Origin: Psychrobacillus sp. FSL K6-2836
GTDB taxonomy: Bacteria > Bacillota > Bacilli > Bacillales_A > Planococcaceae
Length of the DNA stretch: 64,000 nucleotides
Direction: 5' to 3'
Assembly: GCF_038003085.1 (NCBI RefSeq)
Contig: NZ_JBBOOM010000001.1
Coordinates: 1,922,001 to 1,986,000, forward strand
Both the position numbers and the translations under genes were made by a program. Every line of letters starts with the position of its first letter. Within the stretch, counting starts at the first letter, position 1. The notes below the pieces were generated by a model. The model did no database searches. It saw only the letters and a program-made list of their open reading frames with translations, and was not told the origin of the DNA. Below, piece by piece: positions 2,967-59,597 of this stretch.

Positions 2967-3440
2967 ATGGCAGATAAAAAATTTGTGGGATCTTTTCTAA
3001 CAGAACAGGAAGTACTAGACAAAATTAGAGAACTAAAACTGGAAGGTTACGTTGAAGACGATATTTATGTCGTAACAAATAACAAGGAATCGCTTTCGAT
3101 CGTTCGCGGACAAACAGATGTGGAGCTAGAATCGGTTGGAGACAACTGGTTAGACAAATTTAAGGCGTTCCTAACAGGGGATGAGCCTGTCCGTGCTGCT
3201 TTTAGCCAAATGGGATTTACAGATGAGGATTCGCATCGCTATTATAATGAAGTGAAAAGCGGAGGCATTCTCCTATATGTGGATAAAAATTACGGCACAA
3301 TTTACGATGAATATGCGAAAAACCAGTCTGATTCTTCTTATGAGGGAACAGAGATGGGGTATACTGGAGAATCAATCCGTGCAGGAGATGTGGAAAATCG
3401 ATTAAATCAATATCCATTAAGTGACCGTGGTGAGCATTGA
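2967..3440 (+). CDS. yflT: general stress protein, YflT/GSP17M family
   Basis: Cytoplasmic stress protein of 157 residues. The N-terminal half (KKFVGSFLTEQEVLDKIREL, GYVEDDIYVVT) and the central AAFSQMGFTDEDSHRYYNEV followed by GGILLYVD match the heat-induced stress protein YflT domain. The function of the family is unknown; members belong to the sigma-B regulon. An AGGAGGG site lies 8 bases before the ATG and a SigB-type promoter lies just upstream. The C-terminal about 40 residues are polar and low in complexity, as is usual for the family. The downstream lipoprotein gene starts 39 bases later and could be cotranscribed. Confidence 0.88.
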   Translation: MADKKFVGSFLTEQEVLDKIRELKLEGYVEDDIYVVTNNKESLSIVRGQTDVELESVGDNWLDKFKAFLTGDEPVRAAFSQMGFTDEDSHRYYNEVKSGGILLYVDKNYGTIYDEYAKNQSDSSYEGTEMGYTGESIRAGDVENRLNQYPLSDRGEH

Positions 3441-3478
3441 TTTACTTTAACACATCCGGACTAAAGGAGTGATTCACT

Positions 3479-3814
3479 ATAAAATTATTATTTACTGCAC
3501 TTTTAGGAATATCCTTATTAGCAGGTTGTGCTGATGAAGCATCCAATCAAACAGGAACAGAAGAGTTACCTATAGTAAAGGAAGAAAATGAAACATTAAA
3601 TGACCTTCCCGAGTATGATTTATTAGCTAAATATATTGATTTGTCTACGTATGATGCGGATGTGGAAAGCGATAATAATGGAACACGCGTCATTTTCTTT
3701 GAGAATGAAGAAGGACAGAAAGATTATAAGAGTGTATTCGTAAAAGAAGCCAACCATTTAAAGCTTGTTAGCTTAGATAATGATGGATTAATTTACGATG
3801 ATGTAATTCAATAA
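3479..3814 (+). CDS. small lipoprotein with apparent ATA start codon
   Basis: An open frame of 111 codons encodes a lipoprotein: KLLFTALLGISLLAGC is a signal peptide with the lipobox LAGC, followed by an acidic linker and a compact C-terminal domain (EYDLLAKYIDLSTYDADVES, NGTRVIFFENEEGQKDYKSV). No ATG, GTG or TTG precedes the signal peptide in frame: a TGA stop lies three codons upstream. The codon at the expected position is ATA (3479), 8 bases after AAAGGAG. I infer either AUA initiation or a G-to-A mutation that silences the gene. The rest of the frame is intact and ends at a terminator. The function is not recognised. Confidence 0.6.
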   Translation: MKLLFTALLGISLLAGCADEASNQTGTEELPIVKEENETLNDLPEYDLLAKYIDLSTYDADVESDNNGTRVIFFENEEGQKDYKSVFVKEANHLKLVSLDNDGLIYDDVIQ

Positions 3815-3823
3815 CTAAAAATA

Positions 3824-3858
3824 CCCCAAACATGAGCTATAACCGTTTGGGGATTTTA
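3824..3858 (+). terminator. Rho-independent terminator after the lipoprotein gene
   Basis: CCCCAAAC (3824-3831) pairs with GTTTGGGG (3845-3852), followed by ATTTTATTT. It ends the yflT/lipoprotein unit. Confidence 0.85.
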
Positions 3859-58636: not shown

Positions 58637-58742
58637 TGAATCCCCCCTTTTTACATAATTATACCAATTACTTATTTTACTAACAATTCATCCTGTAACT
58701 TTCTTCGAGCTAAAGTGTCTAATAGTTAAAGGAGTGATTAAG

Positions 58743-59597
58743 ATAAAAAGAATAATATGGGGTATATGTTCGATTTTTATTATTTTGATCTTAGCGAGTT
58801 GCGGAACGGATAATTCAGATAGCATTACCGGTAAACCTCAACAAAAGGAAGACAAAAGCATCACAACTGAACTAAAAGTAAAAGAGGATGGCAATGCTTC
58901 ATTTACCATGAAAAATGAAACACCAAAAGAAATGACATTAACATATCCGAGCGGGCAAGAAATTGAATATCAGCTTTTAAACAATGAAGACAATATTGTA
59001 TTCACCTATTCAGCCGACAAGGTATTTGTCCTTATGATTTCCGAAAAACTGCTACAGCCAAATGAAGAAATCGTCATACCACTTGACTTAAAAACAGAAT
59101 TGGCAGAAGTACCTGCTGGTTCATACACACTTGTAGCTTGGTCAACCGCAAAAGAATTAAGTGACCAGAAACAAGAGGTAGCCTATGAATGGGCTGGAGA
59201 TGAAGTAGCGGAAGAAAGTAATGAAACGATTACCGTCTATAGAGGGGACGCAAATGCAGAGTATGTTGAACCATACGACGTAAGTATTGATCCTACAAGC
59301 GATTTAGTTCATCAAATTTTCGAAGAAATTATGGTGCTTGAAGTCGGGTTAATTGATTATCGTTTAGAGAATAATAACACAAAGCTAATCTTAAATATGG
59401 ATAGTGGACTAGAGAATGTACAGGGAAGTGCTGGCGAGAATATATTTATTGGGACAATTGTTCATTCCTATTTTGAAAACCTTCCCGATATAGAGGAAAT
59501 ATACTTCGAAGAGGAAGGTAAATCCCCGGTTGAACTCGCGCATATAGTGGTGTCGAAGCCATTTACAAGGGATCAGGACTATACAAATAAAAAATAG
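58743..59597 (+). CDS. BsuPI-domain lipoprotein with apparent ATA start
   Basis: Lipoprotein of 284 residues: signal peptide IKRIIWGICSIFIILILASC with lipobox cysteine, a BsuPI-type domain (ASFTMKNETPKEMTLTYPSG, QEIEYQLLNNEDNIVFTYSA, PAGSYTLVAWSTAKELS), then a C-terminal region resembling a GerMN domain (NIFIGTIVHSYFENLPDIEE). AAAGGAG (58728-58734) is followed 8 bases later by ATA; an in-frame GTG at 58734 overlaps the ribosome site and is badly placed. Paralogue of the gene at 60360, which has ATG. The BsuPI domain was first seen in an intracellular protease inhibitor; the role of exported versions is unknown. Confidence 0.75.
   Translation: MKRIIWGICSIFIILILASCGTDNSDSITGKPQQKEDKSITTELKVKEDGNASFTMKNETPKEMTLTYPSGQEIEYQLLNNEDNIVFTYSADKVFVLMISEKLLQPNEEIVIPLDLKTELAEVPAGSYTLVAWSTAKELSDQKQEVAYEWAGDEVAEESNETITVYRGDANAEYVEPYDVSIDPTSDLVHQIFEEIMVLEVGLIDYRLENNNTKLILNMDSGLENVQGSAGENIFIGTIVHSYFENLPDIEEIYFEEEGKSPVELAHIVVSKPFTRDQDYTNKK

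Follow-up and report, generated by a model that had tools for sequence, protein, structure and literature searches.

Comparison of a small lipoprotein gene of Psychrobacillus sp. FSL K6-2836 with its orthologues places ATA at the start codon position in this genome and ATG in its closest relatives. As the best explanation, and one we regard as reasonably probable, this accessory gene underwent a lineage-specific ATG-to-ATA down-mutation, is still weakly translated from AUA and is perhaps drifting towards loss. A change of this kind at a start codon is rare but already known. The gene lies near one end of the window, by which we mean the whole 64,000-nucleotide stretch of DNA that was analysed, and the coordinates below refer to it unless another contig is named (Table 1).

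The Shine-Dalgarno sequence AAAGGAG (3463-3469; a sequence-only reading of the same DNA had let it begin at 3464) is followed by a 9-nt spacer (3470-3478), ATA (3479-3481), AAA and an intact frame of 111 codons ending in TAA (3812-3814), much as that reading had described. The N-terminus of the product reads IKLLFTALLGISLLAGC... and has the features of a lipoprotein signal, with lysine in the n-region, a hydrophobic stretch and the cysteine of the lipobox LLAGC ((M/I)KLLFTALLGISLLAGC); LPAM_1 of Pfam matches 3 of 24 homologues. A variable linker joins the signal peptide to a C-terminal domain about 75 residues long, which is present in Psychrobacillus and relatives. Searches of Pfam, NCBIfam and PDB with this domain found no relative, and the structure model (mean pLDDT 65) gave no significant match in a fold search. 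Two further statements of the sequence-only reading stand: an in-frame TGA (3470-3472) lies three codons upstream of the ATA, leaving a stop-to-stop frame that begins at 3473 (TTC ACT ATA), and no ATG, GTG or TTG is at hand to replace it, the earliest in frame being TTG 3641 at codon 55. RNA structure near the start was unremarkable (z -0.6 and -0.9). Also in the lipoprotein frame is a TTG-initiated mini-frame of 11 codons (3437-3472), which ends at the TGA after the Shine-Dalgarno sequence and is found in the sister genome and not in the outgroups. The lipoprotein gene is single-copy in the genome and is located between a gene with a yflT domain and a gene that, named from its sequence, is probably glucose-6-phosphate isomerase-like (pgi), with a terminator-like hairpin closing the unit. 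The hairpin was recognized from the alignment, its loop exceeding the length allowed by the terminator scan, and it is kept in congeners, including two that have no lipoprotein gene.

Table 1. Features of the lipoprotein locus and other genes with near-cognate codons at the start position (window coordinates unless a contig is given; G000, FSL K6-2836; G007, sister genome)
Feature	Position	Strand	Evidence
yflT-domain general-stress-type gene, upstream, in the same presumed transcription unit	2967..3440	+	Pfam PF11181 YflT, E 5e-15; syntenic in congeners
Shine-Dalgarno AAAGGAG, 9 nt 5' of ATA; sequence and spacing identical in sister	3463..3469	+	sequence, alignment
In-frame TGA, also TGA in sister	3470..3472	+	sequence
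ATA at start codon position; ATG in G007, P. antarcticus and P. psychrodurans	3479..3481	+	alignment
Small lipoprotein gene, 111 codons, lipobox LLAGC, linker, ~75-residue domain	3479..3814	+	sequence, homologues
Terminator-like hairpin CCCCAAAC...GTTTGGGG, then T-rich stretch	3824..3852	+	alignment
Shine-Dalgarno AAAGGAG of second gene with ATA at the start position	58728..58734	+	sequence
Second lipoprotein gene, BsuPI domain, 284 codons, ATA	58743..59597	+	congener alignment, omega 0.139
Glyoxalase/dioxygenase-like gene, 313 codons, ATA in sister, ATG in FSL K6-2836 (1715342, -)	G007 contig 1, 2616886	+	omega 0.116, intact
Membrane protein, ATT here, ATG in G007	G000 contig 1, 2254218	+	omega 0.152, intact
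Response regulator, CTG here, TTG in G007	G000 contig 1, 2260000	+	omega 0.170, intact
Erythromycin-esterase-like gene, ATA	G000 contig 1, 1625746-1624493	-	PF05139, E 6e-109

Homologues of the lipoprotein were identified in 38 of the 201 genomes searched (its own included), and the orthologues, at 76-92% identity, keep the order yflT-lip-pgi, so the frame is real. In the sister genome G007, the nearest relative (91% protein identity), the same Shine-Dalgarno sequence and spacing precede an ATG, the start region reading TTCACT ATG AAA AAA TTA TTT there versus TTCACT ATA AAA TTA TTA TTT in FSL K6-2836. The orthologues of P. antarcticus (G006) and P. psychrodurans (G008) also have ATG at the aligned position, and distant homologues with a readable start region have ATG, GTG or TTG. 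Judged from the alignment, this position is the ancestral start codon. Given ATG in the relatives, the ATA is a derived codon, and among the orthologues compared it is private to FSL K6-2836. Conservation of the ATA in orthologues, which the sequence-only reading had proposed as a check, is thus not what we found, the sister and all close orthologues carrying ATG. Strain-specific AUA starts are known (PMC13009471), so conservation would support use without being a strict requirement. Two further congeners (G004 and G014) retain yflT, the hairpin and pgi, and at the same site in both, between yflT and hairpin, the lipoprotein gene is missing with no trace left; it is evidently dispensable.

The initiator tRNA-fMet matches AUA at two of three positions, and IF3 disfavours this codon, for which a strong Shine-Dalgarno sequence partly compensates. 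In the mechanism that we propose, ATG changed to ATA in the FSL K6-2836 lineage, and AAA to TTA two codons on, leaving the strong Shine-Dalgarno sequence unchanged; the normal initiator tRNA would pair with two positions of the AUA, assisted by the AAAGGAG helix, and the lipoprotein would begin with fMet and be synthesized at perhaps 5-30% of the rate before the change, from a weakly constrained gene that may be heading for loss. A global relaxation of start selection was considered and rejected: the genome has three initiator-type tRNAs, all with anticodon CAT, and an IF3 that matches the sister's at each of the 170 C-terminal residues compared. Since both are normal, special machinery is not indicated.

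To place the ATA among other start differences, 1.2 Mb of FSL K6-2836 was compared with 0.8 Mb of G007, giving 591 coding orthologue pairs from about a fifth of the chromosome; the lipoprotein gene failed the third-position filter for such pairs and was added by hand. Most differences are swaps among ATG, GTG and TTG, and most non-start replacements lie one or two codons from a canonical start. The clean exceptions (ATA in three cases, ATT and CTG in one each) are all near-cognates, and none of the inactive replacements ACG, AAG and AGG was seen among them. From the fates of internal Met codons, the chance of that absence is about one in five, so the near-cognate-only pattern cannot separate use from decay. 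Near-cognate starts occur in roughly one of every 150 to 300 genes per genome within the compared stretch, and these are mostly constrained genes. A genome-wide search for a Shine-Dalgarno sequence followed by ATA gave no excess (153 matches versus 151 in the backwards control), and AAAGGAG-N6-10-ATAAAA matched 7 times versus 8, with 3 of the 7 heading a long open frame.

The clearest of the other cases is the erythromycin-esterase-like gene, whose ATA is a more interesting by-product of the analysis than the lipoprotein gene. ATA stands at its start position in FSL K6-2836 and G007 (omega 0.145), and pattern searches gave ATA in G004, G008 and G014, ATG in G006 and G015, and TTG in G005. In the five species that share the ATA, AAAAGGAG 8 nt upstream is the sole conserved Shine-Dalgarno sequence; an in-frame GTG overlaps it and has no conserved Shine-Dalgarno sequence of its own. 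By inference, the codon is a conserved AUA start. The lipoprotein gene resembles the esterase gene in having ATA after a Shine-Dalgarno sequence in the same genome and differs from it in that the esterase ATA is kept under constraint across species. For the second lipoprotein gene in the window, congeners with a full-length orthologue have ATG, TTG or GTG behind the same AAAGGAGTGATT leader, its sequence is under normal constraint, and an in-frame GTG (58734) overlaps the Shine-Dalgarno sequence; this gene, like the esterase gene, appears to initiate at ATA. In addition, infC seems to begin at ATT in all 19 congeners, to judge from Shine-Dalgarno sequence and spacing.

The evidence thus points to AUA being able to start genes in Psychrobacillus. 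A broader and more tentative interpretation is that AUA serves there in practice as a fourth, weak start codon for a few intact, constrained genes that callers misplace, of which the esterase gene would be the example kept across five species and the lipoprotein gene a recent recruit, expressed at a low level and possibly regulated. Gene callers take ATG, GTG and TTG only, and such programs drop or truncate genes with near-cognate starts, which are then called absent or pseudogenes. The expectation that gene finders would miss the lipoprotein gene, and that AUA initiation is plausible, holds, AUA starts being apparently used elsewhere in the genus and one of them in five species. The esterase ATA offers a clean natural example on which AUA initiation could be measured in a genus of Bacillales other than Staphylococcus and Listeria.

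Constraint on the lipoprotein gene is probably weak at best. Between FSL K6-2836 and G007 it shows 10 nonsynonymous and 3 synonymous changes (omega 0.83), compared with omega of 0.07-0.10 in the flanking genes and 0.17-0.34 in other pairs of the same gene. With two outgroups to polarise the changes, the FSL K6-2836 branch has 8 nonsynonymous and 0 synonymous ones and the sister branch 0 and 1; the counts are small, and about half of the changes come from the fast linker. Under the family's ratio of about 1:1, eight of eight nonsynonymous changes has a binomial P of about 0.003 (about 0.007 for seven of seven, if the two changes in codon 3 count as a single event), and under neutrality P is 0.17. 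As a test for a pseudogene, purifying selection on this branch is thus represented by few changes, all nonsynonymous, and by an omega of 0.83 versus 0.07-0.20; the frame itself has the length of its orthologues and is free of frameshift, nonsense mutation and truncation. At fourfold sites the gene differs from the sister at 1 of 33, which ranks it in the lowest 2% among 581 gene pairs with a median of 0.21, and for this reason we consider the ATA young and the segment probably exchanged recently by recombination between the FSL K6-2836 and sister lineages. The segment (3400-3780) is far closer to the sister at fourfold sites than its flanks are, and the gene order upstream of yflT is G004-like, unlike the sister. 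The sequence-only reading had taken the otherwise undamaged frame as an argument against decay, which is not valid for so recent a change in a gene whose own branch shows nonsynonymous changes alone (8 of 8). Its observation was correct; its conclusion of real AUA initiation rather than decay was too strong for an ATA that is derived and lineage-specific.

These same results bear on plain loss of the start codon, in which AUA would be too weak to yield a functional amount of protein and the gene would be a young pseudogene with its frame not yet broken. We give this a minor but appreciable chance: the ATA is private, the branch counts are consistent with neutrality, two congeners lack the gene at the same site, and the low fourfold divergence implies too little time for stops to arise. 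Weighing against it, AUA behind a strong Shine-Dalgarno sequence initiates at roughly at least 10% of AUG in related Firmicutes (PMC13009471, PMC13068326), and constrained genes in the same genome tolerate AUA starts. Weak translation from AUA combined with drift is what we infer.

A sequencing or assembly error that conceals a true ATG is unlikely. The ATA is known from one assembly, its place as the start being assigned by Shine-Dalgarno sequence and alignment, and the sister has ATG; however, three bases rather than one differ in the first nine letters (ATGAAAAAA versus ATAAAATTA), and the chromosome is a single 4.23-Mb contig whose central 400 kb contain no N, at a completeness of 99.99%. 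The esterase ATA recurs in five independent assemblies, which argues against ATA after a Shine-Dalgarno sequence being a general artefact.

Known AUA starts offer several points of comparison. Starts at AUA and AUU reach about 10% of AUG in S. aureus, and ccpN up to 30% in rich medium (PMC13009471). A close parallel is S. aureus citZ, in which an AUA restricted to one strain lineage (NCTC 8325) replaces the usual AUG behind a good Shine-Dalgarno sequence and translation is about 10% of AUG, not abolished (PMC13009471); citZ, however, belongs to central metabolism and its translation was measured with Ribo-Ret and a reporter, whereas the lipoprotein gene is accessory and was studied here through its sequence. 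The ccpN genes of S. aureus and B. subtilis and infC of S. aureus share with the lipoprotein gene an AUA behind an extended Shine-Dalgarno sequence (PMC13009471), but for ccpN the AUA is conserved between species and a regulatory role is assumed, whereas the lipoprotein ATA is private to one genome. Natural rsbW mutants of Listeria monocytogenes carry a similarly recent ATG-to-ATA change and retain translation at a lower rate (ATG > ATA > ATT), in a species where less than 0.3% of core genes have rare non-canonical or flexible starts (PMC13068326). The rsbW change is tied to a selected phenotype, a tie that the lipoprotein gene lacks.

Selected down-tuning, with AUA maintained to hold the lipoprotein low or dependent on IF3 or growth state, has precedents in S. 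aureus infC and ccpN and in Listeria rsbW (PMC13009471, PMC13068326), and the gene is located within a yflT general-stress-type unit. We nevertheless think it improbable, as no orthologue has the ATA and the few changes on the gene's own branch give no sign of purifying selection. Initiation elsewhere is very improbable and was rejected on conservation and position: TTG 3437 does open 11 same-frame codons up to TGA 3470 from which readthrough could proceed, but P. psychrodurans and P. antarcticus lack this arrangement, and a downstream start at codon 55 would fall in the mature domain, with signal peptide and lipobox lost.

Upstream of yflT, at 2902-2930, we also observed a possible sigma-B-type promoter (GTTTTAA...GGGGAATA), and congeners carry similar GTTTA...GGGTAA motifs. 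If this promoter is real, yflT and the lipoprotein gene would form a general-stress unit.
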